DNA from: Natrinema salaciae
GTDB taxonomy: Archaea; Halobacteriota; Halobacteria; Halobacteriales; Natrialbaceae
Direction of reading: 5' to 3'
Length of the DNA stretch: 64,000 bases
Assembly: GCF_900110865.1 (NCBI RefSeq)
Contig: NZ_FOFD01000002.1
Coordinates: forward strand, 740,835-804,834
The notes under the pieces were generated by a model. That model saw nothing but the letters and a program-made list of their open reading frames with translations, was not told the origin of the DNA and made no database searches. Position 1 is the stretch's first letter, and every line of letters starts with the position of its first letter. Both the position numbers and the translations under genes were made by a program. This document shows, piece after piece, positions 9,582 through 50,483 of this stretch.

Positions 9582-9632
9582 CAGCCGGGAAAACGAAAAC
9601 ACGTAAGGTAACTCCCCGTCGAATCCGGGCAT

Positions 9633-10358
9633 ATGCTCCCCCGGTTCGTCGGTCGGCTCGGCGTCGCCGACGTGGTGACGATCGCAAACGCCGCCCTGGG
9701 GTTCGTCGCGGTCGTCGTCGCGGTCGTCGATATCGATCTCGCCGCCCGGCTCATCCTCCTGGCTGCTATCGCGGACGGGCTCGACGGCATCCTGGCGCGT
9801 CGCTACGGCGGCACGGACGCCGGCCCGTACCTCGATTCGCTCGCCGACGTCGCCTCCTTCGCCGTCGCCCCCGCCGTCCTCTCGTTCGTCGTCGTGACCG
9901 ACGGGTTCGGCATCGACTTCGGTTCGGTCACCGGCGACCTCCTGCTCGTGACGGCCGTCTGTGCGCTGTTCGTCGCGATGGCCGTCACCCGGCTGGGAAT
10001 GTACACCGCCTACGACATCTCCGGCAGTTACACCGAGGGCGTTCAGACGACGCTCGCCGCGACGATACTCGGCGCGGCGATTCTCGCCGGCGAGACCCAG
10101 CCGTGGCTCGTGCTCGCCGTCACCGGCGCGTTCTGTTACCTGATGGTCTCGCGCATCCAGTACCCCGATCTGCTGGCTCGAGACGCCGCAATCATGGGCG
10201 TCGTCCACGCGCTCGCGATCCTCGTTCCGAATTTCGCCGGCCGAACGTTCCCGTACGCCCTCCTGACGCTCGGTCTGGCGTACATGACGCTCAGCCCCTG
10301 GTTGTACTGGGGCGGGAAGGAACGATCGCCGTCGGTCGACGTGCATGGAAACGCTTAG
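9633..10358 (+). CDS. assA: CDP-alcohol phosphatidyltransferase, archaetidylserine synthase type
   Basis: Integral membrane enzyme that condenses CDP-archaeol with L-serine. In haloarchaea this class (protein-sorting-system PssA/AssA) supplies lipid for archaeosortase-dependent C-terminal lipid anchoring. The family signature is present: DGILAR, then Gly, then LDSLAD with the catalytic aspartates. Length is 241 aa with about seven or eight membrane helices. Start is the ATG at 9633. The symbol is by similarity to haloarchaeal family members. Confidence 0.85.
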   Translation: MLPRFVGRLGVADVVTIANAALGFVAVVVAVVDIDLAARLILLAAIADGLDGILARRYGGTDAGPYLDSLADVASFAVAPAVLSFVVVTDGFGIDFGSVTGDLLLVTAVCALFVAMAVTRLGMYTAYDISGSYTEGVQTTLAATILGAAILAGETQPWLVLAVTGAFCYLMVSRIQYPDLLARDAAIMGVVHALAILVPNFAGRTFPYALLTLGLAYMTLSPWLYWGGKERSPSVDVHGNA

Positions 10359-10424
10359 GGCCGTGCTGACACGACCGTAGAGTATGTACACTGTCACGCG
10401 TCGGCGTCGTCCCGAGGTGGGACT

Positions 10425-11771
10425 ATGAGCGAGGACGAGGCGAACGGTGACGACGCGGCCGCCGAGGCGGACGACCCCGAGCAGTCCGCCGATCTCGAGG
10501 CCATCGGCGAGCGCCTCGACGGGCTCGCGGCGGACCTCGAGGAACTCGACTCGAGCCTCGAGGCCGCCGAGACCGAGGCCGACCTCGACGTCGTCGAGGC
10601 CGACCTCGAGTCGTTCCGCTCCGAACTCGAGAGCGTCGAAGTGCCGGAGCCGCCGGAGACCGACGAGGACGAGGACGAAGATGAGGACGACGAGCCCGCC
10701 CCGGAGGAAGAACTACAAGAGCAGTACGACGAGATCGAGAGCGATCTCTCGGACCTCGAGTCCGACCTCGAGGACCAGCGCGGTCCCTACGGCGAGGACG
10801 TCGTCGGCGAGATCGACAGCGCCAGCGGCACGATCACGGGCACCCGGTGGACCGAGGAGGGCAACGCGGAGCTGATCGAGGCGATCGACGACTTCCTCGA
10901 CGAACTGAACGACCTGCTGGGGAGCTCGGTCACGCTGGTCAACGAGGGCGAGACGGTCGCCGACCAGCTCGAGGCAACCCTCGACGACGCGGCCGACGCC
11001 GTCGACGCCGCCGCCCTCGATGCGGATGACGACGCCGAAACGATCGCCGGCCTGCTCGAGGCGACCGACCAGCTGGAGAGCGACGTCGACAACGCCACCG
11101 AGTGGACCGACCTCGAGGTCCGCGAACAGCTCCGCCGCGAAGGGTACTACGACGTGCTCGACCACGTCAAGGACTTCCCGCCGGAGTGGCACGCACTCAA
11201 GGTCCACGAGAAGCAGGGCAACGTCGACATGATCCTCCTCGCGCTCGAGACGTTCGACTCCGACTACATGGAGGAACACTGCATGGAGGCCCTCGAACGA
11301 ATGGGGCCCGAGGAGGCCATCGACCCGATGCTCCAGAAGGCCAACCGCCGGGACCAGGCCGCGATGCGAATCCTCGGCAAGATCGGCGTCGACGACGAGG
11401 AGATCGTCGACACGCTGGTCGACTACGTCGACTCCAACCCGAACCTCCAGCAGCCGGCCTTCCGCGCCCTCGGCGAAATCGGTGCCGAAGACGCGGTCGA
11501 GCCGATCGCCCAGCAGCTCGTCGCCGACGAGGCCGACGTCCGCAGCTGGGCCGCCCGCGCGCTCGGGCTGATCGGCGACACCCGCGCCATCGACCCGCTC
11601 GCGGACGTCCTCGCGGACGACGAGTCCGATCGCGTCCGAGCCAGCGCCGCGTGGGCGCTCAACCGGATCGGCACCGAAGACGCCCGCGAGATCGTCGCCG
11701 ATTACGGCGACGACCGCGCGTATCTCGTCCAGGCCGAAGCCGAGAACGCCGACCTCGAGCCCGCGGCCTGA
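10425..11771 (+). CDS. HEAT-repeat protein with acidic coiled-coil N-terminus
   Basis: A 448-aa soluble protein. Residues 1-110 are extremely acidic with heptad-like LEE/LES spacing (likely coiled coil), and 110-220 continue helical and acidic. From about residue 225 (REQLRREGYYDVLDHVKDFP) there are HEAT/PBS-lyase-like repeats, e.g. DSNPNLQQPAFRALGEIGAEDAV and DEADVRSWAARALGLIGD. PBS-lyase HEAT repeats act as protein-binding solenoids; no enzymatic residues are visible. A Shine-Dalgarno-like GAGGTG lies just upstream of the ATG. It stands alone in its transcription unit. Confidence 0.88.
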   Translation: MSEDEANGDDAAAEADDPEQSADLEAIGERLDGLAADLEELDSSLEAAETEADLDVVEADLESFRSELESVEVPEPPETDEDEDEDEDDEPAPEEELQEQYDEIESDLSDLESDLEDQRGPYGEDVVGEIDSASGTITGTRWTEEGNAELIEAIDDFLDELNDLLGSSVTLVNEGETVADQLEATLDDAADAVDAAALDADDDAETIAGLLEATDQLESDVDNATEWTDLEVREQLRREGYYDVLDHVKDFPPEWHALKVHEKQGNVDMILLALETFDSDYMEEHCMEALERMGPEEAIDPMLQKANRRDQAAMRILGKIGVDDEEIVDTLVDYVDSNPNLQQPAFRALGEIGAEDAVEPIAQQLVADEADVRSWAARALGLIGDTRAIDPLADVLADDESDRVRASAAWALNRIGTEDAREIVADYGDDRAYLVQAEAENADLEPAA

Positions 11772-11965
11772 CGACCGGGCGACGAGCCCCGTTTTCGACG
11801 GCGCGAGAAGCGAGCCGCTCTCGAGCTACGCGTCCCGCGCCCGCGAGTCGTTCGGACCGCTCGAGCCACGCGAGACGGGAGGAACCACCTCCCGGTGGCC
11901 GAGCAGCAGGCGAGACCGGCATCGACTCCGAGATTTTATGTACGGACACGCGGCCAGACGGAGCG

Positions 11966-13810
11966 ATGGACATCCGCCGGACTACCCTCACCCTCGCCGC
12001 AGTCGTCGCCTGCTGTCTCGTCGGGAGTGCCGCGATCGGTGCGAGCTTCCCGGTCACCGACGGACCGTCGGCTGCCGACCGGTCGACCGCTCGAGCGACC
12101 GCATCGCCGGACGTGAACGCGACCGACCTCGCCTGTCCCCCGCGGGCGGACGACACGGCGGCAACTGCGGACGAGACGGTGGCACCTCCCGGTACCGGTT
12201 CGGCGACGAGCCCGCGGATCGTCACCCTCGCCCCGAACCCCACCACCGACGGCAACGCCGGTGAGTTCGTCGTCCTCGAGACGCCCCCGGAAACCCCGCT
12301 CGGGAACTACACGCTGACGGACGGCCACACGACGGTCTCGCTACCGAACGAGACGGTTTCCGGCCGCGTCGCGCTCAGCGTGGCCCCGAACGTCACGGCA
12401 ACGCTGACGGAGACGCCGGTGCTCGAACTCGAGGGACATCTCGCACTGGCGAACGACGGCGACGACCTGCGACTGCGAAACGCGACGGCCGCGGTCGACG
12501 CGGTATCGTACGACCGGGCGCGGTCCGCCGAACGCTGGTACCGATCGGAGTCCGACGCCACCGACGACACCGATAGCGACGACGCGATCGACAGCACGCC
12601 CGCTCGCGGCCAGTGGTGGCCCCGAGATGCCACCTGTCTCCCCGTCTCGCGTACCGCAGTCGACGAGGCCACGGCGTTCGTCCTCCCGGACGCGCCGGAG
12701 ATACCGCGGGACACGCTCCGATCGGCCGACGACCGACTCCTGCTTGCCGGCTATACCGTCACCTCCGAGGCGATCGCCGCCGACCTCGTAGACGCGGCCG
12801 AGCGCGGGGTCGAGGTCGCTGTCCTCCTCGAGGCGAGTCCGGTCGGCGGCACGCCGGCAGCGACCGCGGAGGTCCTCGAGACGCTCGAGGCCGGCGGCGT
12901 CGAGGTGCGAGCCATCGGCGGTGAGGGGTCGCGCTATCGATACCACCATCCCAAGTACGCCGTTGCCGACGACCACGTCCTGATCACTACCGAGAACTGG
13001 AAGCCCGCGGGCGTCGGCGGTGAGAGTAGCCGTGGCTGGGGCGTTCGACTCGAGGACGATCACTTCGCCGCGGACCTCGCGTCCGTCTTTCGGACCGATT
13101 TCGAGGGGCGTGACACGCTATCTGGGCCGGCCTACCGCGCCAACACCTCGTTCGTCGAGGACGAGGGACCTGTCTTCTCCACGCCGGCCCCCGAGTTCCC
13201 GACGACTCACGAACCCGCGACAGTCCCAGTCGACTCGGCCGAACTCCTGCTCGCACCGGACAACGCCGAGCAGCGGTTGCAGGAGTTGCTGGCCAGCGCC
13301 GACGACGAACTCCTCGTTCTCCAACCCAGTATCGCCGCCGACGTGTCCCTGCTCGAGGCGACCATCGACGCGGCCCGCCGCGGCGTCGACGTTCGGATTC
13401 TGCTCGGGTCGACGCGGTACAACGCCGACGAGAACGAAGCGCTGGCCGCGGACCTCGAACGTGTGGCCGACCGCGAGGACCTCCCGCTCGAGGTTCGGCT
13501 CCTCGAAGACACCGACCGGTTCGAAAAGATCCACGCCAAGGGCGTCGTGATCGATCGGGAGACAGCGATCGTGGGCAGCGCGAACTGGAACGCGAACTCG
13601 CTGGAGAACAACCGCGAGGTACTGGTCGCGCTGCACGGCGCGGCGGTCGCGAACTACTACGCTGACGTGTTCGAATCGGACTGGACCGGCGACTCGCAGT
13701 CGTTTCCGATCGGTCTCGGCGCTGTGATCGTCGTCGCCCTCGCGGCTGCCGCCATCGTCGGGCGAACCTATGTCCGATTCGGTGACCGACCGCCGTCCGA
13801 GCAGACGTAG
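11966..13810 (+). CDS. Secreted phospholipase D-like protein with lamin-tail-type N-terminal domain
   Basis: A 614-aa extracellular, membrane-tethered protein. A Sec-type signal occupies residues 1-28 (LTLAAVVACCLVGSAAIGA). A lamin-tail-like beta domain follows (VTLAPNPTTDGNAGEFVVLE). Two PLD half-domains carry HxKx4D motifs, HPKYAVAD and HAKGVVID, each followed by the GS/N-type element (TTENW; GSANWN). One transmembrane helix near the C-terminus (GLGAVIVVALAAAAIVG) leaves a short basic tail. Both HKD motifs are intact, so phosphodiesterase or nuclease activity on an extracellular substrate is plausible. The start at 11966 begins the signal peptide; the longer open frame upstream overlaps the HEAT gene and is a shadow. 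Confidence 0.85.
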   Translation: MDIRRTTLTLAAVVACCLVGSAAIGASFPVTDGPSAADRSTARATASPDVNATDLACPPRADDTAATADETVAPPGTGSATSPRIVTLAPNPTTDGNAGEFVVLETPPETPLGNYTLTDGHTTVSLPNETVSGRVALSVAPNVTATLTETPVLELEGHLALANDGDDLRLRNATAAVDAVSYDRARSAERWYRSESDATDDTDSDDAIDSTPARGQWWPRDATCLPVSRTAVDEATAFVLPDAPEIPRDTLRSADDRLLLAGYTVTSEAIAADLVDAAERGVEVAVLLEASPVGGTPAATAEVLETLEAGGVEVRAIGGEGSRYRYHHPKYAVADDHVLITTENWKPAGVGGESSRGWGVRLEDDHFAADLASVFRTDFEGRDTLSGPAYRANTSFVEDEGPVFSTPAPEFPTTHEPATVPVDSAELLLAPDNAEQRLQELLASADDELLVLQPSIAADVSLLEATIDAARRGVDVRILLGSTRYNADENEALAADLERVADREDLPLEVRLLEDTDRFEKIHAKGVVIDRETAIVGSANWNANSLENNREVLVALHGAAVANYYADVFESDWTGDSQSFPIGLGAVIVVALAAAAIVGRTYVRFGDRPPSEQT

Positions 13811-33763: not shown

Positions 33764-36700
33764 TCAGCCGCGTATCGGGTCGGCGCTGCCGTCCGCACGG
33801 ATCGGCAGGATCGTCGCATCGTCGGCCGCTTCCACGGTAAGGCCGTCCGTAGCGAGGTCCTGCAGCGTCGACACGGAGTACCGATACGATCCCGGGTCGG
33901 TGTCCGCATCGATCTCGTGGGTGAGCGAGACGACCGCGGACTCCCCGCCCTCGAGCGCGACCGTCGCTGCCGAGTCGATACCGACCGATTCGCGTCGGTC
34001 GGCCGGTGACTGCTCGTCGGTCTCGAGCGCCGGCGACGTCACGTTCCAGAAGAGGTAGACGTCCTGCTCGTCGGCTTCGTCGCCGGTGTTGGTGATCGTC
34101 GCGTCGACCGTGATCGCGTCACCCGCATTGGCGGCGGCCGGCCCGTCGACATCGCTCACGGCGAAGTACGCGGGTTCGGGCTCGCCGGCCTCTGATTCCT
34201 CGATCGTGATGGTCGTCGACGCCACCTCGTCGGCGGAGACGCCGTGTTCGTACTCGCCCGGCTCGTCGTCCTCGGGAATCTCGTAGGTGAACTCGACCGT
34301 CGTCGACTCGCCGCCGTCGAGGGTGACGGTCTCCGACAGTTCGGGCCGATAGTCGACGACGTCCGTTCCGAAGTCGGTTCCCGGCGGGAAGTAGAACGCC
34401 GTTCGGGTGTCCGTCCGGTCACCGGTGTTGGTGATCGTCGCGTTGACCACGATCGTTTCCCCCTGCGTGGCCGTCTCGGGGGCCTCGAGATCGCTGACTT
34501 CGAAGTACGTGCCGAGCGTGAGGTTCGCCGTCGCCGTCGCGCCCGGTTCGACGTCGACGAACTCGATGGTCGAGTCGTCGTAGCCGTCGGCGGCCGCGCG
34601 GAGCGCGTACCGCCCGGGTGCCAGCCCGTCGATCTCGTAGGAGCCGTTTTCGTCGGTCGTCACGCTGAACGCGCCGCCGTCGGCGTCGGCGACGGTCGCG
34701 TCGGCGATCGGAACGCCGGCGGCGTTCGTGACGTAGCCGTCGATCGTACCGGGAGTGCGTTCGATCTCGAAGTCGACGCCGGTGACGTGTTCACCGGGAG
34801 CGACCGTGACGATCTTCTCGGGCCGGTAGCCGGGCGGCGTGTCTGCGACGTCGACGACGTACGTGCCCGCCGAGACGTCCGTGAGCGCGTACGTTCCGTT
34901 CGCGTCGGTCGTCGCCTCGAAAACCTCGCCATCGTCGTTCTCGGCGGCGACCGTGACGTTCGCGACGGGAGTTCCGTCGTCACTCGCGGTCACCTGCCCG
35001 CTCATCGTCGCCGCGGTAGCGCGGAGTTCGACGTGCTTCGTGACGGTCTCGTTTTCGAGGACCGTCACGGTGTCCGTCACCGCCTCGTAGCCAGTCGCAG
35101 CGACCGTGAGGGTGTACTCCCCGGCCGGAACGTCCTCGACGGCGTACGTTCCGTCCGCGTCCGTTACGCCGACGTACGTTTCGTCGTCCCGCTCGAGTTC
35201 GACGGTCGCGTTGGCGACCGGCGATCCGGTCGTATCGTCGGACACCGTGCCGGCGACGGTGCCCAACTGCGCACCGAGTGCAAACGGTGTGCGCACCGCG
35301 TCGTCCTCGCTTTCGACCGCGTGAGCCCACTCGAGTTCGGGATCGAGATCCTCGAGCACGGCGGAGAACTCGACAGTCGACGACTCGCCCGGATCGAGCG
35401 ATACCTCGGTCGTCGTGCGCTCGACGCTCGCTTCGAGGGGGTCGTCGACGTACGTGACCGCGTTCGCGAGGATCGCGTTGGCGTCGTCGGTGAAGTCCCC
35501 GTCCGCGACGAACTGCGTCCGTCCGAACGAGGCCAGCAGAACGTGGTCGCCGTCCTGGCCGACGCCGACCGCGGCACCGTCGGGGCTGCCGGCACCGACG
35601 TCCGCGATTGCGTCACCGCTGTAGTCGTCGAACCAGGCGCGGTCGGCGAAGGTGGCGTCGTGGATTTCGACCGACTCGCCTTCGTCCGCGATGCCGTCGA
35701 ACAGGGCGTGGTCGGCCGTGATATCGAGTTCGACCGGCGGTGAACCGGAGTCGGCGATGTCGACGGCCGCGGGGTCGCCGGTTACATCGGAGCGATCGGT
35801 AATCGCGGTCGAATCGGCGCCCCAGTTCTCGAGGAAGACGACGGCCTGGTCGTCCGCGAGGGTGTCGAGGAACGCCTCGACGTCGGCGTCACCGAAGTCG
35901 TTGACGACGAAAACGTCGTACGCGTCGACCGATGCGAGCAGTTCGTCCGCTCCGAGCGGACTCACGTTGTACGAGTCGTCGAGTTCGCCTTGCAGGGTCG
36001 CGGAGAGCTCGTCGGCAGCATCGGCGAGGTCGTCCCGGTCGCCGTCGACGTTCCGATCGTCGAGGGCGGCCCGGACCGACTCCGTACCGGCCTTGCTGTC
36101 GACGACTGCGACCTCGGTGCGCTCCCGGACGACGTCGTACGTTACCCGTTGCGTGCCCGGCGCATCGCCGGTGTTCTCGACGCCGGCAGTGACGGTGTAG
36201 GCATCACCGGGCTCGAGCCGATCGGGCGCGTCGGCGATCTCGACGTCGAAGAAGGGCTCGAGGATCGTTATATTGCCGGTTGCAGCGTCGTCGTCGGTGA
36301 AGACGCCGTGTTCGTAGGTGCCCGCGGAGACGTTCTCCGTGTCGGCCGCGAACGAGACGGTCGTCTCCGCGCCGGGTGCAAGCGTGACGGACTCCTCGAG
36401 CAGCGTCTCGTCGAGGTCGCCAAAGCGGTACTCGACGGACTGAGTGTCCTCGACGTTGCCCACGTTCTCGACGGTCGCGTTGATGGTGACGTTCTCGCCG
36501 CTGTTGGCCTCGTCGGGCGCGTCGAGAGACGAGACGTCGAACTGCGAGGCCAGGTACGTGAACTCCTCGGTCGCCTCGTCGTCCTCGGTGGTGACGGTGA
36601 CCGCGTACGCTCCGCTCCGGAGGTCGTCGGTGTCGACCTCGAACGTGATCGTCGTTTCGGACGGGGAGCCGATCGGCTCGTCGACGCCTTCAGGGGCCAT

Positions 36701-38545
36701 ATCGACGACCTCGGTCGCGACGGTCTCGCCGTCGCCCGGCTCGGCCGGATCGTCGCTCAGCTGGAGGGAGACTTTCTGGACCGCACCCTCCTCACCGGGG
36801 TTGGTGAGGTCGACGGTGACCTCGAGCGGCTCGCCTTTGTCGACGTTGTCGGGAACGTCGAAGCCGGTCACCGCGATCTCGCCCTCGTCGAGCGACCCCA
36901 GTACCTTGCGCTGGAGCAGGTTCAGATCGGTCGTCGTAACCTCGCCGTCGCGGTTCAGATCGCCGAGATCCTCGCTGAAGGGCTCGGGGGTTTTGTCCTG
37001 CAGGTACTGCTGTGTCAGCCGAACGTCCCGGACCGTGAGCGACTCGTCCCGGTCGACGTCGCCGAGCTCGTACTCGAGCGCAGCGCCACCGACCTCGGCG
37101 ACCGCGGCGCGGACGTCGATGATACCGTGACCGTACCGGACGTCCTTCTCGTCTGGCGCGTCCGCGGGTTTCCAGGCCGTCTCCTCGAGGGTGGACTCGA
37201 TCTCCTCGTCGGAGAGGTCGTCGTTCGCCGAGAGCATGAGTGCGATGGCACCCGACACGTGCGGGGCCGCCATCGATGTCCCCGAGTATCGCTCGTGTCC
37301 GCCGCCGGGTACTGCGCTGAGGACGTCCGCACCCGGTGCGGAGACGTCCGGCTTGACCCACTCGTCGGGCCATTCGGGGTCCGGCTCCTCCCAGTTGTCG
37401 GCCGCGACCGTGCCGCCGCTCGAGAAGTCGGCGATGGTACCGGCCTCGTTGGAGGCACCGATGCTGAACGAGTCGTAGATGTTCGCGGGCGAACCGACAC
37501 AGCCCTCGCCGGAGTTCCCCGCGGAGGTGACCGCGACGACGCCGACGTCGTTGGCGTTCTGTATCGCGGGGATCCAGGCATCCTGGTACACCGGTCCGAA
37601 GGGCCCACAGCCCGCGCCGAAGCTCATGCTGACGACGTCGGTGTCCATCTCCTCGATGACGTACTCGAAGCCGGCGATGGGGTCGGAGTTGGCGCTCGAT
37701 CCGCCGGGCAACACGAGCGCGTGCTGGAGGTCGACGTCGGGGGCGACGCCGTACGCGGGAGTCTCGTTGTCGTCGGGAGCGGCGGCACCGATCGTTCCGC
37801 CGACGTGGGTCCCGTGCGACTGGGTGTCATGTGGTTCGGAGCCCTCGACGGGCTCGCCGTCCGGGCCGATCTCGACCCAGCCGCCGGGGTAGGTCGGATC
37901 GTCCTCGTCCTCCGTGTAGAGGTCGAGGTCGGGATGACTGACGTCGAAGCCGGTGTCGAGGACGGCGACTTTCACGTCCTCGCCCGTGGCATCGAACTCG
38001 TCCCACGTTTCAGTGGCGTTGATCTGCTCGAGCCCGTAGGTGAACTCGTCGGAATCGGGCTCCGCGGCCGGCCGGGCGGCCGTGTCCGGCACGCGATACT
38101 CCGGTTTCGCCGTGATCGATCGGACGCCGTCGATCGTCGCCAGCTCCGATGCGGTGACCGATGTCGTGTCGATCGACGCACGAACGGTGTTCGTAATCCA
38201 GTAGCTGTTGATCACCTCGACACCGCTGCGGGCACCGAGTTGTCGTTTGGCCGTCGCCTGTGACGACTCGGCGTGGTCCTTGAGTTGGGCGATCGCCCGC
38301 TCGCGATCGGCGCTGAGCGCGCCGTCGTACTGATCGAAGGTGAGATAGACCTCCGTGGTCCCGTTTGCGTCCTCGATCGCCGGATCGATCGTCGGCGCTG
38401 CGGTGTCCGTCTCGAGTGATTGCGCGTCGATACCGTCGGTTGCGACCGCGGTTCCTGCTAACCCGCTCCCGGTGATCGCGACGAGCGACACTACCAGCAG
38501 TAGCGACAGCAGGGCGGCCGTAATCCGTTCTCGCGTATCTGTCAT
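33764..38545 (-). CDS. Giant secreted subtilisin-like protease with dockerin, CARDB and carboxypeptidase-regulatory repeats
   Basis: A 1593-aa extracellular protein. A signal peptide (about 1-36) and an I9-like propeptide (60-150) come first. The S8 catalytic domain follows (185-485; Asp197 in VLDTGF, His244 in SHGTHVGG, Asn344, Ser424 in GTSMAAPHV). A dockerin-type calcium pair is at 493-551 (GDVDRDESLTVRDV; GDLNRDGEVTTTDL). CARDB-like adhesion domains, a GATase/ThuA-like segment (VAVVDSKAGT to VLLASFGRTQF), three carboxypeptidase-regulatory repeats (DGTYAVEDVPAGEYTL type) and two more CARDB domains complete it. No PGF-CTERM or membrane anchor is seen, so it is probably released. The leader lacks a clear twin-arginine, unlike classical Tat halolysins. 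Confidence 0.9.
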   Translation of the reverse strand: MTDTRERITAALLSLLLVVSLVAITGSGLAGTAVATDGIDAQSLETDTAAPTIDPAIEDANGTTEVYLTFDQYDGALSADRERAIAQLKDHAESSQATAKRQLGARSGVEVINSYWITNTVRASIDTTSVTASELATIDGVRSITAKPEYRVPDTAARPAAEPDSDEFTYGLEQINATETWDEFDATGEDVKVAVLDTGFDVSHPDLDLYTEDEDDPTYPGGWVEIGPDGEPVEGSEPHDTQSHGTHVGGTIGAAAPDDNETPAYGVAPDVDLQHALVLPGGSSANSDPIAGFEYVIEEMDTDVVSMSFGAGCGPFGPVYQDAWIPAIQNANDVGVVAVTSAGNSGEGCVGSPANIYDSFSIGASNEAGTIADFSSGGTVAADNWEEPDPEWPDEWVKPDVSAPGADVLSAVPGGGHERYSGTSMAAPHVSGAIALMLSANDDLSDEEIESTLEETAWKPADAPDEKDVRYGHGIIDVRAAVAEVGGAALEYELGDVDRDESLTVRDVRLTQQYLQDKTPEPFSEDLGDLNRDGEVTTTDLNLLQRKVLGSLDEGEIAVTGFDVPDNVDKGEPLEVTVDLTNPGEEGAVQKVSLQLSDDPAEPGDGETVATEVVDMAPEGVDEPIGSPSETTITFEVDTDDLRSGAYAVTVTTEDDEATEEFTYLASQFDVSSLDAPDEANSGENVTINATVENVGNVEDTQSVEYRFGDLDETLLEESVTLAPGAETTVSFAADTENVSAGTYEHGVFTDDDAATGNITILEPFFDVEIADAPDRLEPGDAYTVTAGVENTGDAPGTQRVTYDVVRERTEVAVVDSKAGTESVRAALDDRNVDGDRDDLADAADELSATLQGELDDSYNVSPLGADELLASVDAYDVFVVNDFGDADVEAFLDTLADDQAVVFLENWGADSTAITDRSDVTGDPAAVDIADSGSPPVELDITADHALFDGIADEGESVEIHDATFADRAWFDDYSGDAIADVGAGSPDGAAVGVGQDGDHVLLASFGRTQFVADGDFTDDANAILANAVTYVDDPLEASVERTTTEVSLDPGESSTVEFSAVLEDLDPELEWAHAVESEDDAVRTPFALGAQLGTVAGTVSDDTTGSPVANATVELERDDETYVGVTDADGTYAVEDVPAGEYTLTVAATGYEAVTDTVTVLENETVTKHVELRATAATMSGQVTASDDGTPVANVTVAAENDDGEVFEATTDANGTYALTDVSAGTYVVDVADTPPGYRPEKIVTVAPGEHVTGVDFEIERTPGTIDGYVTNAAGVPIADATVADADGGAFSVTTDENGSYEIDGLAPGRYALRAAADGYDDSTIEFVDVEPGATATANLTLGTYFEVSDLEAPETATQGETIVVNATITNTGDRTDTRTAFYFPPGTDFGTDVVDYRPELSETVTLDGGESTTVEFTYEIPEDDEPGEYEHGVSADEVASTTITIEESEAGEPEPAYFAVSDVDGPAAANAGDAITVDATITNTGDEADEQDVYLFWNVTSPALETDEQSPADRRESVGIDSAATVALEGGESAVVSLTHEIDADTDPGSYRYSVSTLQDLATDGLTVEAADDATILPIRADGSADPIRG

Positions 38546-40417: not shown

Positions 40418-40577
40418 GGTGTCTCGGTCTCGAGTGAGCGAGCGACCGCTAAAAGGGCAGTGAATTCGCCCGCCGCGGTCGAGCGACGGGAATCGGCGGT
40501 CGGCCGGTCGGGCAGTTCCCGCCCGACACAGCCGTCCGACCAGTGATGCTTTGCAACGGGGGCCCGTCTATCGGGCT

Positions 40578-41204
40578 ATGGATGGGACTCGAGGAACCGG
40601 GCGGTCCGGGTTCTCGATCGACCGTCGGGAACTCCTCGCATCGGCGGCCGGGATGCCAGCGCTGGTCGGTTGTCTGGACGGTGGCGCTGACGACGGCGAC
40701 GACGGCGACGGCGGGACTGACACCAGTGGCGACGGGGCCGGCGAACCGCCGTTCGAAATCGCCACGATCGACGCGCCCGGAAGCGAGGCCGGAACCGTCC
40801 AGATCCCGCAGTCTGGACGGGTCACGTGCTGTAATTTCACTCGGACCCAGTGTCCGACGAGCCGCGGTCTGCTGCCGACGCTCGGCGAGGCGAAGACACG
40901 CCTCGAGAACGAGGGCTACGCCGTCGGCGGCGACGATCCCGCGATTCGGTTTCTCTCGGTCACGGACGCCACCAGCGGCCCCTCGCCGTCGGACGACGAA
41001 CTGGCGGCCTGGTTCGACGAGAACGGTGGCGACTGGCCGCTCGGTCGCGACGAGACCGGGGCCAGTTACGAGTACTACGAGATCGACGGCTACCCCACGA
41101 CGATCGTCCTCGATGGGGCCGGGGAGAGCCGCTGGCGTAACGCGGGCGACACGACCGCGAGTACCGTCGTCACGGCGGTCGAAACGGCGCTCGAGGAGGG
41201 CTGA
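40578..41204 (+). CDS. TlpA/Sco-like thioredoxin-fold lipoprotein lacking CxxC
   Basis: A 208-aa Tat lipoprotein: RRELLASAAGMPALVGC with lipobox Cys, then an Asp/Gly-rich linker and a thioredoxin-like domain. The strand-turn GRVTCCNFTRTQCPTSRG sits where the redox motif should be; one Cys (CPTS) remains, so ordinary disulfide exchange is unlikely. A cis-Pro-type YPTTIVLDG near the end supports the fold. It shares the segment IDAPGSEAGTV with the CGHC-bearing paralogue at 42420-43049. The start is the ATG at 40578. It could be a copper chaperone-like Sco relative. Confidence 0.8.
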   Translation: MDGTRGTGRSGFSIDRRELLASAAGMPALVGCLDGGADDGDDGDGGTDTSGDGAGEPPFEIATIDAPGSEAGTVQIPQSGRVTCCNFTRTQCPTSRGLLPTLGEAKTRLENEGYAVGGDDPAIRFLSVTDATSGPSPSDDELAAWFDENGGDWPLGRDETGASYEYYEIDGYPTTIVLDGAGESRWRNAGDTTASTVVTAVETALEEG

Positions 41205-42183: not shown

Positions 42184-42423
42184 ATGTCCCCCGCATCCGG
42201 TATTCACGGGCTCCTCGAGACGACGAGATCGCGGCTCGAGTCCCAGCCGATCAGCCACTGGGGAGGTCTCCTGATCGCTACGGGGGCGGTCTACGCGGCC
42301 GCGAGGACGGCGAGCAGCAACGAACCGCTCTCGGTGGCGGCGAACGGGGTCATCTTCTTCGGGACGGCGTTCGCGACCGTTCGCGTCCTCCTCGGGGCGA
42401 TAGACGAGGCTGAGACCGTATGA
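42184..42423 (+). CDS. Small membrane protein coupled to TlpA
   Basis: A 79-aa protein with two hydrophobic helices (WGGLLIATGAVYAAARTA and VAANGVIFFGTAFATVRVLL) and a short N-terminal polar segment. It starts at 42184, directly behind a TATA box, and its stop overlaps the ATG of a CGHC thioredoxin-like gene (ATGA). It may anchor or supply a substrate for that redox protein. No family is recognised. Confidence 0.6.
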   Translation: MSPASGIHGLLETTRSRLESQPISHWGGLLIATGAVYAAARTASSNEPLSVAANGVIFFGTAFATVRVLLGAIDEAETV

Positions 42424-43049
42424 GACGCCGCGAAATCGTCGCCGGCTTCGGCAGCATCGGTGTCCTCGCCGGAGCGACCGGAGTCGCCGTCGGCAAACTG
42501 TTCCTGCCCTCGTTCGGCAGCGACTCCACGACGGACGACGGCGACGGCGGCCACTCGGACGGGCCGGTCGACGTCGAGACGATCGACGCTCGAGGGAGCG
42601 AGGCCGGTACGGTGACAGTCCCCAACGACGGTATTACGGTCGTCTCGTTCTTCGTCACGGGCTGTGGCCACTGTCAGGCGACGATGCCGCGGCTCGCCGA
42701 GGCCCGGTCCCGACTCGTCGAGGACGGCGGGGACGAGCTGACGTTCCTCTCGGTCACCTACCAGTCACTCGATAACAAACCGGCAGACGAGCTCCGCGAG
42801 TGGTGGCGCGCCCACAGCGGCAACTGGAACGTCGGCTACGACCCGAACTCGACGCTCGCGGCGCGCTACGGCGTGTACGGCTACCCCGTCACGGTCGTCG
42901 TCGACGAGCGGGGCGAGAAACACTGGGACAAGCTCGGCATCATAGAGCCCGCGGACCTCGTCGAGGCCGTCGAATCCGTCCTCGAATCTGCCGACGGCAA
43001 CGCATCCGAGTCGGCCGACGGCAACGTGTCCGAATCTGCCGCCGACTGA
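42420..43049 (+). CDS. TlpA-family thiol-disulfide protein (CGHC)
   Basis: A 209-aa membrane-associated thioredoxin-fold protein. The N-terminus MRRREIVAGFGSIGVLAGATG has a twin-arginine but no lipobox Cys, so a Tat signal anchor is likely. The active site is FFVTGCGHCQATMPRL, and the cis-Pro lies in YGYPVTVVVDE. The C-terminal tail repeats ESADGN twice. It probably acts on the extracellular side in cytochrome or copper-centre maturation. It is a paralogue of the CxxC-less gene at 40578. Confidence 0.87.
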   Translation: MRRREIVAGFGSIGVLAGATGVAVGKLFLPSFGSDSTTDDGDGGHSDGPVDVETIDARGSEAGTVTVPNDGITVVSFFVTGCGHCQATMPRLAEARSRLVEDGGDELTFLSVTYQSLDNKPADELREWWRAHSGNWNVGYDPNSTLAARYGVYGYPVTVVVDERGEKHWDKLGIIEPADLVEAVESVLESADGNASESADGNVSESAAD

Positions 43050-43056: not shown

Positions 43057-46000
43057 TTACGACGACCCGTTCCCGAACCGAGTGAACAGGCCGGAGATCG
43101 AATCCTTCCAAGAGGAGTTGGCGTCCCCGATCGCGGTGATGCCGTCCGGACCGACGAGACAGAGCCGGCCGCTCGCAATCGCGAGTGACGTCGCGCTCGC
43201 GACGGACTCCACCGCGAACTCCCACCGGCGGGTGCCGTCGTCGGTCGTCAGGGCGACGACGTGCCCCTCGGCGGTCCCCAGACAGACGGTGTCGTCGATG
43301 ACGACCGGATCAGTCGTCGTCCCGTCCGTGACGACCCGCCAGCGCTCGGCACCCATCGCCGCGTCGACCGCGTAGACGCTTCCGTCTCCACTGGCAGCGT
43401 AGACACACCCGTTCGCGACGGCCGGCGACGCGACGAGACGACCGCCGGTATCGAATCGAAACCGTCGCGAGCCGTCGGCGGCCGAGAGCGCGCGGAGCGT
43501 CGTCCCGCAGCCGACGTAGACGGTGCCGTTCGCGACCGCGGGCGACGCGGCGACCGATCCCTCGAGATCGATCACAGTCTCCCAGTGCCGGCTCCCGTCG
43601 TCGGCAGCGAGTGCGATCACGCGGTCCTCACAGGCGGCGTAGACGACGTCGTCGTCGACGGCGATACCGACGAGCGGCGCGTCGAACGGGACCGTCCAGA
43701 TCGGATGGCCGGTTTCGGCGTCGATCGCGTGGAGCGTGTCGCTCCCGACGTAGACCGTCCCGTCGACGACGACCGGTGACGTGCGGACGGTGGCGTTCGT
43801 CCGGTATCGCCAGGTCCGCTCGCCCGTTTCGATATCGAGCGCGTAGACCGCCGCGTCGCCGCCGACGTACACGGCGTCGTCGATCACCGCGGGCGTCGTC
43901 CCGATCGGGGCGTCCGTCTCGAACCGCCAGCGCTCGCCGCCGTCCTCGAGCGCCAGCGCGGCGACGGAGCCGTCGTCGCTCGTGACGAAGACGGTCTCGC
44001 CGACCAGCGCCGGCGGCGCGTCGACGCGGCCGTCCGTCTCGACGCGCCACTGCGTCGCGGGGGTCCCGCCGAGCGCATCGCCGTCTCCGACCCGGCCGGT
44101 ACCCGACGGGCCCGCGCGGGTCATTCGCCAGTCGAACGTCTCGTCGCCCTCATCGGAATCGCGCTCGAGTCGGTCGACCGCGGTCGTCGCCGCGCTCGAG
44201 ACCGAGGGAACGGGGTCGTCGACCAGCGGCCGAATCGCGGCCGCGGAATCGTCGGCCTCGATCGCCGTCAACGCCCGGATCGCGCGGGCTCGAACGCGAC
44301 CGTCGGGGTCGGCGAGACGCGGCCGGAGCGCAGCCGCGATCCGATCGACGTCCGCCGCCTCACTGCATTCGTCCGCGGCCGCGGCGAGGACGGTCCCCAC
44401 TGTTGCCCGAACGTCGGCGTCCGGATCCGACAGCGCCACGAGCAACTCGTCGGTCGCCGCGCCGATCCCGTGCGAGTCGTCCGCGACCATCGTCGCCAGC
44501 GTCCGTCCGGCGGTCGCTCGGACGATCGGGCTGTCGACGGTGAGCCCAGCCGCGATCTTCGAGACGCCGGTCGGACGGAGACTCTCGGACTCGTCGGCGA
44601 GCACCGAAAGCGCGAGGACGGCCAGTCCGGCGGCCCACGGGTCGTCTTCGAGTCGCGTCCCCATGCCGGAGAGTTGATTGTTGATTCCGTCGGTGTTGTC
44701 CGGCGTCTCGCCGCCGCTGACGAGCGAAGCCGCGTCGAGCAGCCGATCGTCGACGCCGTCGAGTCCGCCGTCTAGCGCGGAGCCGTCGTCGCGGCCCGTG
44801 ACGGCGAGGCACCCGAGCGCTAGCGCCGCGTATCCGCGGACGGCCTCGTCGTCGTCGTCGAGCAGGTCGACCAGCCGCTCCCGAACGATCGCGACGTCGT
44901 CCGGAGCGGCCGCCGCCAGCCGCGCGAGTTCCCCCGCGACCGACGCGCGGTCGGCCCCGTCCGACGCGAGCTCCTCCAGCAGGAGTTCCGAGACCGAGCT
45001 CCGGTCGGTCTCCGCGACGACGGTCGTCGCCGTGCGGACGACCGCTCGGCGCTGCTCGTCCGAGGAGTCCCGCAGCCGATCGACCAGGAGCGTCGCCCCC
45101 TCGGCGACCAGTTCCGCGTCCGTCCGCGCGACGTCGCCGAGCGCCAGCGCCACCGCCGTCGCGCGCTCGTCCGCGGCGGACAACACCGCCGAGAGCGCCT
45201 CGAGCGGCGTCGGGTCGGTCCCGGGATCCGCCGCGAGGAGCCGCTCGAGCGCGTCCAGCGCGGCGGCGCGGACGGTCGGCGTCGGGTCGACGAACAGGTC
45301 ACAGACGGCACCGACGGCGGCCTCGGTTTCCGCGCCCGTCTCGAGGTCGAGGGCGGCCAGAGTCTCGCAGGCGGCGACGCGGACCGCCTCCTCGTCCGCG
45401 TCGGTCTCCGCGGCGGCGACGGCGACCGTCGGGCGGCAGTCGCTTCGCGAGACGGGTGCGACCGACGCGAGGGTCTCGCGGACCGTCGCGCGGACGCCGG
45501 GATCCGAGTCGTCGACCGCGGCGAACAGGTCGACCAGCGCCGGCCGGACGTCGTCGGGACGGGCCGCCGCGAGCCGCGAGAGCGCGAGCGCCGCGTTGTT
45601 TCGGACGCTCGCGTCGTCGTCGGAGAGCCGACCGCCCAGCGGTGCGACGGCCTCGCTGGTCTCGCGGGGACGCTCGGTGGCGATCGGAACGAGATCCCGG
45701 GTCGCGGACCGCCGAACCGCCACGCTGTCGGCCTCGAGCCGCCGACACAGCGATCGAACGGCCGGGTGTGGATCGACCAGCTGCGACTCGGCGATCTCCG
45801 CCAGCCGGCGGGCGGCGTGGCCGCGAACCCACTCGTCGCCGTCCTCGAGCCGGTCGACCACCGCCGGAACGTCGACGTCCTCGTCCGGGTCCTCGAGCGC
45901 GATCTCGCTCAGCGCGTCGGCCGCACTGTGACGGACCGGTTCGTGCGGATCGTCGAGGCGGTCGGCGAGTCGGGACACGACGGGCCGAACTGCGGCGGGC

Positions 46001-47259
46001 GCGATCGCCGAGACGGCGGCGATCCCTCGAGCGGCCGCCGCCCGGACGTCCTCGTCCTCGTCGTCGAGGACGTCGGCCAGTTCGGCGGCGACGGGTTCGG
46101 CGGCCTCGGGTGTCGTCTCGGCCACGCTGGCGATGGCCGCGACGCCGTGGCTTCGAACCGCCGGCTCGTCGTCCGTTAATCGATCCGCGAGCGGTTCGAC
46201 GGCCGGGACGACCGCCTCGGGTCGGTCCGACGCCAGGGTCGCCAGCGCGGCGGCCGCGTCGACCCGGACCGGCTCGAGCGAGTCGTCGAGTCGCTCGACG
46301 AGCGCGTCGACGGACGGCGAGACCGCATCGGGGGCGACGTCCGTCGCGTTCCGGAGCGCGCTCGCGGTTTCCCGGCGCACGTCGGCCTCGGCGTCGAGGC
46401 TCGCGGCGAGTCGATCCGCCACTTCGCTGACGGAATCCGGGTGCTCCGCCGCGACGGCCGCGAGCGCCGCAGCGGCGTCGGCCCGGACGGATTCGCGGTC
46501 GTCCGTGAGCGCCGTCGCGATCGGCTCGACCGAGGCCGTGACCGCCGACGGCTGGTCGGCCGCAACCGACCGGATCGCCCGGGCGGCGCGCTCCCTGACG
46601 CCCGGCTCGTCCTCGAGCCGAGCGACGAGCCGATCGATCGCGGCGAGAACTGCGTCGGGGTCGTGCGCCGCGACGGCCGCGAGGGTCGCGGCCGTCTTCT
46701 CCCTGACCGCCTCGGTCTCGTCGTCGGTTGCGGCCATGACGACGTCCGCGACGGGGACCACCGACTCCGGATCGTCGGTCGCGATCGACGCGATCGCGTC
46801 CGTCGTTCGGATTCGAACGGTCTCGTCGTCGTCGGTGACGTAGGCCGCGAGTTCCGTCGCCGAATCGGAGATGGCACCCGGGTCGTCGGCGGCGATCGAC
46901 GCGATCGCGTCCGCCGCATCCGCCCGCACCGCCGTCGATCCCTCGAGACGCTCGGTCAGTGCCGGCGCGGCGTCTCGCGTCTCCCGCGGGAAGGCGGCGG
47001 CGACGGCCGCCAGCGCGGCGGCCGCGTGCGATCTGATCGCCGGATCGTCCTCGAGACAGTCGGTCAACGACCCCACGGCGGATCGCACGTCTCTCGGCCG
47101 ATTCGAGGCTTCGTTCGCGAGCGTCTTGGCCGCGTACGCCCTGACTTCGGGGTCGTCGGCCGTCAGGAACTCCTCGAGTTGATCGATTCCGACGGTCACC
47201 TCGACCCCGTCCCCCTCTCCGTCACCCGATCCGTTCGTAATATTATTTATTTCTGACAT
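43057..47259 (-). CDS. Giant HEAT-repeat / PQQ-type beta-propeller fusion protein
   Basis: A 1400-aa soluble acidic protein without signal peptide. Residues about 25-1045 are roughly 27 tandem HEAT units of 36-38 aa (pattern DDxxVRxxAAxALAxVAxxxPxxV). Residues about 1068-1390 are eight PQQ/WD-like repeats of about 40 aa (e.g. WRVETDGRVDAPPALVG, then VYALDIETGERTW), predicted to form a beta-propeller. The last 20 residues are unique (SSWKDSISGLFTRFGNGSS). The start is the ATG at 47259; an in-frame start 72 bp upstream is weaker. No enzyme motif is visible; a scaffold or sensor is likely. PQQ repeats are usually exported, so the cytoplasmic setting is odd. Confidence 0.88.
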   Translation of the reverse strand: MSEINNITNGSGDGEGDGVEVTVGIDQLEEFLTADDPEVRAYAAKTLANEASNRPRDVRSAVGSLTDCLEDDPAIRSHAAAALAAVAAAFPRETRDAAPALTERLEGSTAVRADAADAIASIAADDPGAISDSATELAAYVTDDDETVRIRTTDAIASIATDDPESVVPVADVVMAATDDETEAVREKTAATLAAVAAHDPDAVLAAIDRLVARLEDEPGVRERAARAIRSVAADQPSAVTASVEPIATALTDDRESVRADAAAALAAVAAEHPDSVSEVADRLAASLDAEADVRRETASALRNATDVAPDAVSPSVDALVERLDDSLEPVRVDAAAALATLASDRPEAVVPAVEPLADRLTDDEPAVRSHGVAAIASVAETTPEAAEPVAAELADVLDDEDEDVRAAAARGIAAVSAIAPAAVRPVVSRLADRLDDPHEPVRHSAADALSEIALEDPDEDVDVPAVVDRLEDGDEWVRGHAARRLAEIAESQLVDPHPAVRSLCRRLEADSVAVRRSATRDLVPIATERPRETSEAVAPLGGRLSDDDASVRNNAALALSRLAAARPDDVRPALVDLFAAVDDSDPGVRATVRETLASVAPVSRSDCRPTVAVAAAETDADEEAVRVAACETLAALDLETGAETEAAVGAVCDLFVDPTPTVRAAALDALERLLAADPGTDPTPLEALSAVLSAADERATAVALALGDVARTDAELVAEGATLLVDRLRDSSDEQRRAVVRTATTVVAETDRSSVSELLLEELASDGADRASVAGELARLAAAAPDDVAIVRERLVDLLDDDDEAVRGYAALALGCLAVTGRDDGSALDGGLDGVDDRLLDAASLVSGGETPDNTDGINNQLSGMGTRLEDDPWAAGLAVLALSVLADESESLRPTGVSKIAAGLTVDSPIVRATAGRTLATMVADDSHGIGAATDELLVALSDPDADVRATVGTVLAAAADECSEAADVDRIAAALRPRLADPDGRVRARAIRALTAIEADDSAAAIRPLVDDPVPSVSSAATTAVDRLERDSDEGDETFDWRMTRAGPSGTGRVGDGDALGGTPATQWRVETDGRVDAPPALVGETVFVTSDDGSVAALALEDGGERWRFETDAPIGTTPAVIDDAVYVGGDAAVYALDIETGERTWRYRTNATVRTSPVVVDGTVYVGSDTLHAIDAETGHPIWTVPFDAPLVGIAVDDDVVYAACEDRVIALAADDGSRHWETVIDLEGSVAASPAVANGTVYVGCGTTLRALSAADGSRRFRFDTGGRLVASPAVANGCVYAASGDGSVYAVDAAMGAERWRVVTDGTTTDPVVIDDTVCLGTAEGHVVALTTDDGTRRWEFAVESVASATSLAIASGRLCLVGPDGITAIGDANSSWKDSISGLFTRFGNGSS

Positions 47260-47547
47260 GGTGTCTGCCTGTCTCACGGCATGCGTGATTCCAGTACACG
47301 CAATCGCGTTGATAGTTAAACATGCAGACACACTCAGTTAATTCTACCCCCGGCAGTCCACGATCCAATTTCGCAGTCGACAGATCGGCGCGAGCGATCG
47401 ACGCCGCCCCCTCAGATGCAAGCCGGTCGGCCAACGGGGTTCACCGCGTTGGGTTTCACAGTTGTCCGCCGAGGACGGACCGAGTATGCACCGACCACCG
47501 AGACGACGGCAGCGGATCGCGGTGATCCGAGAGAGACGGGGGCTCGA

Positions 47548-49131
47548 ATGAGCGAGCGGCCGCTCGAGCCGACGCGGCGCGACCTGCTCGCCGGCCTCGG
47601 CACCGCAGGCGGCGGCGCGCTCGCCGGCTGTTCGACGACGCTCGGAACCGGACCGTCGCCGACGTTCCGGGTCGGGACGCTCCGCCCGCCGATAACGCTC
47701 GACCCGATCGAGGCCCGTTCGATCGGCTCCGAACAGGCGATCGGGCGCGTGTTCGACGGACTCTACGAGTACGGCGAGGGGACCGACGTGGTCCCCGCGA
47801 TCGCGGCCGGCGAGCCGGCGTTCGGGACCGACCGCCGCGAGGTCACTGTGGAAATAGACGAGCGGGCCCGGTTCCAGAACGGCCGGGACGTCGTCGCCGA
47901 GGACGTGGTCTACTCGTTCGAGGCACCGCTCGAGACGGACGCACCGACCGCGTGGCGGGTGGAGCCGTTCGACTCGGTCACGGCCGTCGACGAGCGCACC
48001 ATCCGATTCTCGCTCGAGGAACCGTATCCGGGACTCGACTACGCGCTGACGCACCCGATCGTCCCCCGACAGGAGCGGGAAGACGACAGGGAGGCGTTCG
48101 CCACGGAACCGATCGGAGCGGGTCCGTTCGAGGTAACGTCGTTCAGCGCCGAAAAGAAGGCCACGCTGTCCCGCTGGGGCGATTACTGGGGCGATCCGGT
48201 GCCCGAAATCGCTCGGCTCACCATGGCGTACGTCGAATTCCCGATGACCCAACTGACGAGCCTCCGGACGAACCGGAACGACGCGATCGAACCGGTCTCG
48301 CCGCTGATCGTCGATCACGTGAGCGACGTGGCGAACGCCTCGGTGAAACGCCGGCAGGGCTACACGTCGTTCTACTTCGGCTTCAACCTGAACCAGGGAC
48401 CGACGACCGACCCCCGGGTTCGGGAGGCGATCAGCTACTGCATGGACCTCGAGAAAGCGGTCGCCGACTTCGTCGCGCCGATGGGACGGCGTCAGTACAG
48501 CCCGCTACCGCCGCAGGTAGCCGACGACTGGGACATGCCGACCGACGAGTGGGCCGACCTCGCGAACGAGACGAACCCCGAGACGGCCCGCCAACTGTTT
48601 CGCGAGGCCGACGCGGCGAGCGGTCAGCTCCGCATCCTCACGTCGACGGATCCGAAACATAAGGAGTTCGGCGAGGCACTGGCCGGCGGCCTCCGGGACG
48701 CCAGCCGCGGTGCGCTCGTCGTCTCCAAACCCGAATCCAGCTTCCTCGAGACCGTCGTCTCCGGTTCGGCGCGCGACTACTCGGTGTTCGTGGGCGAGAT
48801 CGTCGGCACGCCCGATCCTGACTCGCACCTCTATCCGACGTTCCACGAGAACATGGCGGGGGTGACGAACGGGACCTTTTACCGCGAGGACGCGGTCATG
48901 GAACGGCTCATGGCGGCTCGCGAGACGGAGGACCGCGAGCGGCGACGCCGGCTCTACGAGGCGGCGATCACGCGGCTGCTCGAGGACCGGGTCTGCTTGC
49001 CGATCTGCTCGTTCGAGAACAGCTTCGCCGTGGACGCCGGCGTTCGGAATTTCCGCGTCCATCCGATCGCGGGAGTCAACCCGCGGCTCGCAGCGGGTGC
49101 GGACATCGTAACGATGGAGACGGAACCATGA
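47548..49131 (+). CDS. ABC-type solute-binding lipoprotein (family 5, peptide/nickel type)
   Basis: A 527-aa extracellular binding protein. The N-terminus has a Tat motif TRRDLLAGLG and a lipobox ending LAGC. Family-5 features follow: TLDP-like PITLDPIEAR, NGRDVVAEDVVYSFE and GPFEVTSFSAEKKATL. No ABC permease or ATPase gene accompanies it; instead the stop overlaps the ATG of an APC-family permease. The start is the ATG at 47548, since the in-frame extension to 47416 lacks homology. Confidence 0.88.
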   Translation: MSERPLEPTRRDLLAGLGTAGGGALAGCSTTLGTGPSPTFRVGTLRPPITLDPIEARSIGSEQAIGRVFDGLYEYGEGTDVVPAIAAGEPAFGTDRREVTVEIDERARFQNGRDVVAEDVVYSFEAPLETDAPTAWRVEPFDSVTAVDERTIRFSLEEPYPGLDYALTHPIVPRQEREDDREAFATEPIGAGPFEVTSFSAEKKATLSRWGDYWGDPVPEIARLTMAYVEFPMTQLTSLRTNRNDAIEPVSPLIVDHVSDVANASVKRRQGYTSFYFGFNLNQGPTTDPRVREAISYCMDLEKAVADFVAPMGRRQYSPLPPQVADDWDMPTDEWADLANETNPETARQLFREADAASGQLRILTSTDPKHKEFGEALAGGLRDASRGALVVSKPESSFLETVVSGSARDYSVFVGEIVGTPDPDSHLYPTFHENMAGVTNGTFYREDAVMERLMAARETEDRERRRRLYEAAITRLLEDRVCLPICSFENSFAVDAGVRNFRVHPIAGVNPRLAAGADIVTMETEP

Positions 49132-50483
49132 GCGGGGACGGCGGTGGCGGAAACGGGGACGGCGGGGACGAAAACGGCGGATTCGGCGTCGGAACGGCCG
49201 TCGCGCTCGGCGTCGGCGGCATCGTCGGCGGCGGCATCTACGCCGCGATCGGCATCGTCGTGGCCGCCGCGGGGATCTTGACGTGGTTCGCCTACGCGCT
49301 GGCGACCGTCGTCGTCCTCTGCTGTGCGTACTCGTACGTCAAATTGAACGACGCGACCGACAGCAGCGGCGGGTCGGTCTCGTACATCGAGGAACTCACG
49401 GGGAGATCGACGACGGCGGGCGTCGTCGGCTGGACGCTGGTCGTCGGCTACATCGGGACGATGGCGATGTACGCCTACGCGTTCGGCATGTACGGACAGA
49501 TGCTGATCGGATTCGAGTACGTCTGGGGGCTCCCGATCAGGCAGTTCCTCTCGGTCGGCGTCCTCGCTATCTTTATCGGGTTGAACCTCCTCGGTGCGGG
49601 CTCGTCGGCGGCGGTCGAACGGTATCTCGTGTTCGTCCAGGCGGGGATCATCGCCGCGTTCGGCCTGATCGGCCTGTGGTACGGCGCAGCGAACTATCAA
49701 CTCCGGCTGGGCTTTGCCGAACTCGGGCTCAATCCGATCCTCGCCGCTTCGGTCGGGTTCGTCTCATTCGAGGGGTGGCAACTGTTGTTCTACGATCAGG
49801 AGCAGTTCGACGATCCGGACGAGACGCTGGCGAAGGGGGTGTTCGTCTCGATTCCGATCGCGGCGTCCATCTACATCCTCGTCGGATTCGTGATTACGAC
49901 GCTGTTGCCCGAAGAGGTGGTCACCGCCCAGCCCGAACCGTCGCTGCTCTACGCCGCGTTAGCCGTCTCGAAGTGGCTCGCGCTCGCGGTCGGACTCGCC
50001 GGCCTCATCTCGACGGCCAGCGCGATCAACTCGACGCTGTTCAGCGAGGCCATCTTCGCGAAAATCCTGATCAGCGACGACATCTTGCCCCACGAGATGG
50101 GTGACCCGGACGCCGACGCCGCCCCGAAACGGACCGTGATCGTCATCGGCGTCCTGACGGCCGCGTTCACCGTCCTCGGCAGCCTCGAGGCCGTCGTGGA
50201 GTTCGCCTCGCTGGCCTTCATCGTCGTCTTCGGCGCGATGAGCGCGCTCGCGTTGACGGTCCGCGACGCCGACGACGTCGACGTCAATCCGGTCCCGCCC
50301 CTGGTCGGCGTCGTCGGCTCGGCCGCCTTCTTCGTCATGCTGACGTGGTACCTCTACTCGCAGCTCCCCGCCGTCTTCTGGCTGGTCGTCGTCATCGCGG
50401 CGGCGGTCTTCGCAGTCGAAGCGATGTACTTCAAGCGACAGGAGCTTTCCGAAGGCGTTCAGCAGGTGGAAAAGCGGATCTAA
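49128..50483 (+). CDS. APC-superfamily amino-acid permease
   Basis: A 451-aa secondary transporter with about twelve helices. The Gly-rich unwound helix 1 (VALGVGGIVGGGIYAAIG) is the family hallmark, and helix 6 regions (AASVGFVSFEGWQLLFYD) fit. The N-terminus is a Gly/Asp-rich tail. It overlaps the solute-binding gene at its start (ATGA) and is convergent with topA, whose stop overlaps its own. Substrates are probably amino acids or amines. Confidence 0.9.
   Translation: MSGDGGGGNGDGGDENGGFGVGTAVALGVGGIVGGGIYAAIGIVVAAAGILTWFAYALATVVVLCCAYSYVKLNDATDSSGGSVSYIEELTGRSTTAGVVGWTLVVGYIGTMAMYAYAFGMYGQMLIGFEYVWGLPIRQFLSVGVLAIFIGLNLLGAGSSAAVERYLVFVQAGIIAAFGLIGLWYGAANYQLRLGFAELGLNPILAASVGFVSFEGWQLLFYDQEQFDDPDETLAKGVFVSIPIAASIYILVGFVITTLLPEEVVTAQPEPSLLYAALAVSKWLALAVGLAGLISTASAINSTLFSEAIFAKILISDDILPHEMGDPDADAAPKRTVIVIGVLTAAFTVLGSLEAVVEFASLAFIVVFGAMSALALTVRDADDVDVNPVPPLVGVVGSAAFFVMLTWYLYSQLPAVFWLVVVIAAAVFAVEAMYFKRQELSEGVQQVEKRI

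Follow-up and report, generated by a model that had tools for sequence, protein, structure and literature searches.

A kinase-less fusion of a long HEAT solenoid and a PQQ-like propeller in Natrinema salaciae and its relatives, a candidate cytoplasmic scaffold

A 64,000-nucleotide stretch of the Natrinema salaciae genome (contig NZ_FOFD01000002.1, positions 740,835 to 804,834; hereafter the window) contains a gene for a 1400-residue protein in which a HEAT solenoid is followed by a PQQ-like propeller (the HEAT-PQQ protein). Both modules are common; their kinase-less, long-solenoid combination is new, and a literature search gave no description of a HEAT-PQQ fusion, so that the architecture is as unfamiliar as a previous reading of the DNA letters (the sequence-only reading) had held. 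On balance, we lean towards a cytoplasmic, non-enzymatic scaffold or adaptor, in which the solenoid and the propeller bind partners and a C-terminal tail docks the complex. The coordinates of the features are collected in Table 1.

The mechanically called open reading frame starts at a GTG at position 47331. The start was placed at the downstream ATG on the basis of the ortholog alignment and an upstream promoter element, TAGAATTAACT. This element fits an archaeal TATA region and would imply a start site about 55 to 60 nucleotides (nt) before the ATG, so that the GTG is an unlikely start. A single open frame of 1390-1537 codons ran through both domains in 33 of 36 orthologous loci; among the remaining three, two frames were short or broken and one lay at a contig edge. 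dN/dS in close pairs was 0.17-0.36 across the whole protein and similar between domains. Given the single frame, the matches across relatives and these dN/dS values, the fusion is a genuine family under purifying selection. Two genes joined by a sequencing error near residue 1050, an explanation raised by the sequence-only reading, were ruled out by the frame count, and a domain search for a well-described fusion family, which that reading had also named as a possible objection, found none. One broken-frame ortholog (G090, L069:about 8950-12000) aligned in one piece over residues 499-1064 alone, with a frame of 1000 codons, and is likely a decaying copy; it retains the upstream element.

HEAT repeats were identified by Pfam HEAT_2 in 10 stretches (1.4e-46; 157 bits against a cut-off of 27.7). 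AlphaFold2, supplied with 26 orthologs, modelled residues 1-1040 with 55 helices of at least 7 residues, corresponding to about 27 repeats, at a mean predicted local distance difference test score (pLDDT) of 89. Poorly defined regions were limited to residues 1-20 and a hinge at 457-495 holding the invariant residues D475 and W477. Conservation within the solenoid was highest at these two residues and in segments 20-105 and 838-900, all of them candidate binding sites. The protein was modelled as two overlapping pieces (1-1040 and 800-1400), and the placement of solenoid relative to propeller is not fixed by the models. In Foldseek, the whole solenoid matched CAND1 and karyopherins best, at 12-16% identity and template modelling (TM) scores of 0.16-0.26; the top match had an E value of 5e-18, yet a TM-score of 0.24 and 15% identity. 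Residues 20-465, the first dozen repeats, superposed on importin-alpha, beta-catenin and Vac8 with Z about 27 over 360-440 residues. CAND1 and karyopherin-beta resemble the solenoid in length and kind, but are eukaryotic, lack a propeller and superpose poorly over the full length. Because repeat proteins match one another easily, the armadillo/karyopherin likeness tells shape, not ancestry. Further Pfam matches to Cnd1 and PDS5 are generic HEAT similarity, and a PADLOC match to OloA was treated in the same way.

The regularity of the repeats had been taken by the sequence-only reading as a sign of recent internal duplication. For comparison, 35 repeat-sized segments, some overlapping, were placed on a VR-type motif. 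For two relatives (62-73% identity), the closest segment was in all 35 cases the ortholog segment at the same position; for the most distant relative (44-47% identity), this held in 26-27 of 35. Segments within one protein shared a mean of 20% and at most 47%. Since orthologous repeats are closer to each other than paralogous ones, the regularity is by this comparison old, and recent duplication is ruled out.

The C-terminal module matched Pfam PQQ_2 (8e-47; 160 bits against a cut-off of 27.6). The model of residues 800-1400 contained eight four-stranded blades, the last of which is completed by strand 1067-1074 (268-275 in the model), so that the propeller forms a closed ring; about 25 disordered residues link it to the solenoid. 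The proposal of about 27 HEAT repeats and an eight-repeat propeller in one 1400-residue frame was thus borne out by Pfam and by the models. The closest folds were the designed propeller Cake8, YxaL and BamB (Z 36-40), and the resemblance to non-enzymatic and designed PQQ-like propellers was counted in favour of a scaffold. Propellers of the BamB and YxaL type share the fold but have no HEAT solenoid fused to them. Identity with BamB was ruled out on score (148 bits against an equivalog cut-off of 285) and on features, there being no lipoprotein export signal; AfsK scored 116 bits against a cut-off of 1300.

Pfam returned no Pkinase match. Searches of Pfam, NCBIfam and PADLOC gave generic HEAT and propeller matches but no catalytic domain, in agreement with the absence of an enzymatic motif noted in the sequence-only reading. 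The N-terminus has neither a signal peptide nor an RR/Tat motif, and a Kyte-Doolittle scan gave no 19-residue segment with a mean above 1.4 and no transmembrane helix. Other PQQ proteins of N. salaciae have N-termini that look like signal peptides, unlike that of the HEAT-PQQ protein. A probable cytoplasmic location, as first suggested, follows from the lack of an export signal, and a non-enzymatic binding role from the two interaction folds and the lack of a catalytic domain.

The propeller is followed by a short tail, NSSWKDSISGLFTRFG, which includes SISGLFTRFG and was modelled as a helix of low confidence. Its consensus, S-S-W-x-D/E-S-I/L-S-G-L-F-T-R-F-G, was recognisable in full-length orthologs and was kept, with variations, down to 44% overall identity. 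The hydrophobic moment of the tail was 0.61 in the window protein and 0.51-0.69 across orthologs. The moment by itself is a weak argument, as HEAT helices are amphipathic too; persistence of the motif outside any folded domain is a stronger one. MinD and FtsA are anchored by C-terminal amphipathic helices of similar size, and by analogy the tail may be a docking helix, directed to a membrane or to a further partner.

The exact upstream element was present in 19 of 27 orthologs, the others carrying close variants (TAGCATTAACT, TACCATTAACT and similar). Across 1.19 Mb of sequence it was confined to the HEAT-PQQ gene and did not occur at sites from which the gene is absent; in the window there was one exact match, against 0.08 expected even with one mismatch allowed. 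A scan for bacterial promoters and terminators, a type ill-suited to archaea, was empty. Between element and start codon, 17 representative orthologs have an inverted repeat at about -30, with arms that vary (TGCGTG, GATCGCG, ACCGTGCTG, GGAGTCAG). Stem length averaged 6.1, compared with 4.4 +/- 0.2 and a maximum of 5.06 over 300 shuffles; the repeat centres clustered with a standard deviation of 4.4 against 11.4 nt (minimum 6.6). The shuffles preserved base composition only, and the related sequences are not independent. The same measure upstream of neighbouring genes was 3.9-5.1. The window leader itself folded no better than shuffles (z -0.6), and the search for known RNA families gave none, two matches lying far below the gathering score. 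Taken over the family, these values suggest that the 5' leader holds a regulatory hairpin or operator.

Distribution was examined with the HEAT-propeller junction region, rather than the full protein, as query. The gene was present in 36 of 125 Natrialbaceae genomes and 6 of 29 genera, where the family label of the sample rests on named relatives; this answered the question of phylogenetic spread posed by the sequence-only reading. A 37th row (G001), a HEAT-only match with E 1e-7, was left out. Named orthologs included those of Natrinema versiforme, N. hispanicum and Natronorubrum texcoconense. Against 242 Halobacteria genomes, strong matches of the junction profile (E <1e-80) were confined to the Natrialbaceae and the rest were weak (1e-12 to 1e-15); absence outside the family refers to this class sample and profile alone, and unrelated HEAT-PQQ fusions may occur elsewhere. 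On these counts the gene is an accessory gene of the Natrialbaceae. It adjoins topA, the topoisomerase I gene, in 25 of 27 distinct loci and lies away from it in two genomes. In nine genomes without the gene, topA was separated from a convergent thioredoxin-like gene by 106-267 nt, leaving clean empty sites. As the protein and topA trees share their main clades and gene-less lineages are nested among carriers, the trees point to vertical descent from an early family ancestor and repeated loss; horizontal transfer was not favoured. Ortholog identity was 44-73% for the HEAT-PQQ protein and 82-94% for TopA, and at the sequence level the former evolves much faster.

In the scaffold or adaptor reading, the solenoid would wind into a long, flexible superhelix and hold a partner protein or an extended peptide in its groove, the propeller would add a rigid platform as second binding surface, and the amphipathic tail would dock the complex on a membrane or a further partner. 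With two or three binding sites in all, two partners could be brought together. The "large scaffold" of the sequence-only reading was thus kept as reasonable. A precedent is OE2401F of Halobacterium salinarum, a HEAT_PBS protein that acts through its interactions with Che and archaellum proteins (PMC2666748); it is likewise a haloarchaeal HEAT protein, but is HEAT only, lacks a propeller and lies in a chemotaxis gene region. Several points count against this reading. HEAT and propeller folds tell little about function, the whole-solenoid TM-scores were low, and the tail helix had a pLDDT below 50 in the monomer model. In addition, topA, the thioredoxin-like gene and a methyltransferase gene remain where the HEAT-PQQ gene is absent, so that the neighbourhood gives no functional link; partnership with topA or with the convergent thioredoxin-like gene is unsupported for the same reason. 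A more specific version, which we regard as a long shot, is a lineage-specific archaeal cargo adaptor: the armadillo/karyopherin-shaped solenoid would hold client peptides, the propeller a second partner, and the tail would be a tether of the MinD/FtsA kind, with the amount of protein set by the structured 5' leader. If true, it would be an independently evolved prokaryotic solenoid-propeller assembly hub. Very large solenoid and propeller scaffolds are usually regarded as eukaryotic; here one is haloarchaeal, well conserved, encoded by a single gene and dispensable. Pairs of species with and without the gene, together with the clean empty sites, make its role directly testable.

The closest known architecture is that of Halomicrobium mukohataei WP_012807464.1 and Halomicrobium sp. 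LC1Hm WP_153554981.1, plasmid-encoded proteins of 963-966 residues from two species, which also join an N-terminal HEAT region and a C-terminal PQQ-like propeller in one haloarchaeal chain. They contain a central Ser/Thr kinase and a HEAT region of only about 250 residues, whereas the window protein has about 27 repeats and no kinase. Halarchaeum and Halorussus encode HEAT-kinase proteins and Halapricum a kinase-PQQ protein, and all three combinations occur on haloarchaeal plasmids; haloarchaea thus shuffle HEAT, kinase and PQQ modules, to which the HEAT-PQQ family adds a kinase-less, long-solenoid member. The Halomicrobium fusion genes (L114:1261-4152, L117:1581-4481) lie beside two further kinase genes and a TCP-1/cpn60 chaperonin gene. 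Annotated as cohesion protein PDS5, the Halarchaeum plasmid protein (L115:2941-6144) combines a HEAT solenoid with a kinase domain at its C-terminus; genes for an AAA ATPase and a further kinase lie nearby.

Given this shuffling, the main rival is a role in signalling: the protein would be a kinase-less relative of the HEAT-kinase-PQQ proteins, whose solenoid and propeller would act as arms for sensing and substrate binding and work in trans with a Ser/Thr kinase encoded separately. Two kinase-FHA proteins in the N. salaciae genome could fill that place, but are encoded on another contig; the modules of the window protein are joined by nothing longer than the disordered linker, and its propeller is not clearly more similar to the kinase-linked propeller (35.7%) than to other PQQ proteins. 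We consider this role unlikely, though not to be dismissed. The kinase-sensor likeness of the sequence-only reading therefore stood as regards the plasmid-encoded relatives and fell short in the window protein, which has no kinase domain. The kinase-FHA genes (L130:5372-6646 and 8353-9627; G000:C4 about 354-359 kb) might belong to a Halo_FHA locus of the endosomal sorting complex required for transport (ESCRT) type, as in PMC10936438.

A chromosome-associated protein tied to topoisomerase I and akin to the HEAT subunits of condensin or cohesin would account for the proximity of topA and for the Cnd1 and PDS5 matches. It is very improbable, given that those matches are generic, that topA was present in all genomes tested and undisturbed by repeated loss of the gene, and that the gene has its own upstream element and lies away from topA in two genomes. 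A coat-like protein polymerising on membranes, if anything less probable still, would share with membrane coats (clathrin/COP/nucleoporin type, PVC coat-like) a propeller and a solenoid in one chain; the amphipathic tail and the propeller proteins of the proposed Halo_adaptin ESCRT systems (PMC10936438) would fit as well. Coat architecture is, however, defined as an N-terminal propeller followed by a C-terminal solenoid (PMC2799638), the reverse of the order found here, and the vesicle-coat suggestion of the sequence-only reading was dropped. A PQQ-dependent enzyme with a HEAT extension is hardly credible: weak matches to Pfam PF01011 and NCBIfam TIGR03075 (PQQ-dependent dehydrogenase) were obtained, the latter at 65.8 bits against a cut-off of 480, and the window protein has no vicinal Cys pair and no export signal.

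Table 1. Features of the HEAT-PQQ gene and its upstream region (window positions).
Feature	Position	Strand	Basis or remark
HEAT-PQQ fusion gene, 1400 residues	43057..47259	minus	ATG at 47259, stop at 43057-43059
Putative promoter element TAGAATTAACT	47336..47346	minus	72-89 nt upstream of ATG in orthologs carrying the element
Inverted repeat in 5' leader (TGCGTG-9-CACGCA)	47282..47302	minus	position kept, arms differ between orthologs
HEAT solenoid, residues about 25-1040, about 27 repeats	44140..47187	minus	AlphaFold2 mean pLDDT 89, helix count, conservation
N-terminal conserved cap, residues 20-105 (EVTxGIxxLExFLxAxDP...)	46945..47202	minus	ortholog conservation, among the highest in the protein
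Eight-bladed PQQ-like propeller, residues about 1067-1380	43120..44061	minus	structure model; Pfam PQQ_2; fold matches
Conserved C-terminal tail, residues 1381-1397 (NSSWKDSISGLFTRFGN)	43069..43119	minus	motif kept in orthologs; predicted amphipathic helix

Around the gene, two paralogous thioredoxin-like genes of the TlpA type (window 40551-41204 and 42420-43049) flank the methyltransferase gene; in many genomes the second is retained next to topA, whether the HEAT-PQQ gene is present or not. In some genomes only, topA and the HEAT-PQQ gene are separated by a pair of genes for an ATP-binding cassette (ABC) substrate-binding protein and an amino-acid permease (window 47416-50483), which marks the site beside topA as a hotspot of gain and loss. 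In two related genomes (L129:723-4859, G009; G004:C8:92293-96429), topA is interrupted in frame after GIGTK by about 540 additional residues (CLTADTNIL...VVHN|S), an apparent intein that the window topA lacks. Elsewhere in the window (33764-38545), there is a 1593-residue secreted subtilisin-like protease in which dockerin-like repeats (DVDRDESLTVRDV...LNRDGEVTTTDL) and carboxypeptidase-regulatory-like repeats were recognised, by eye only.

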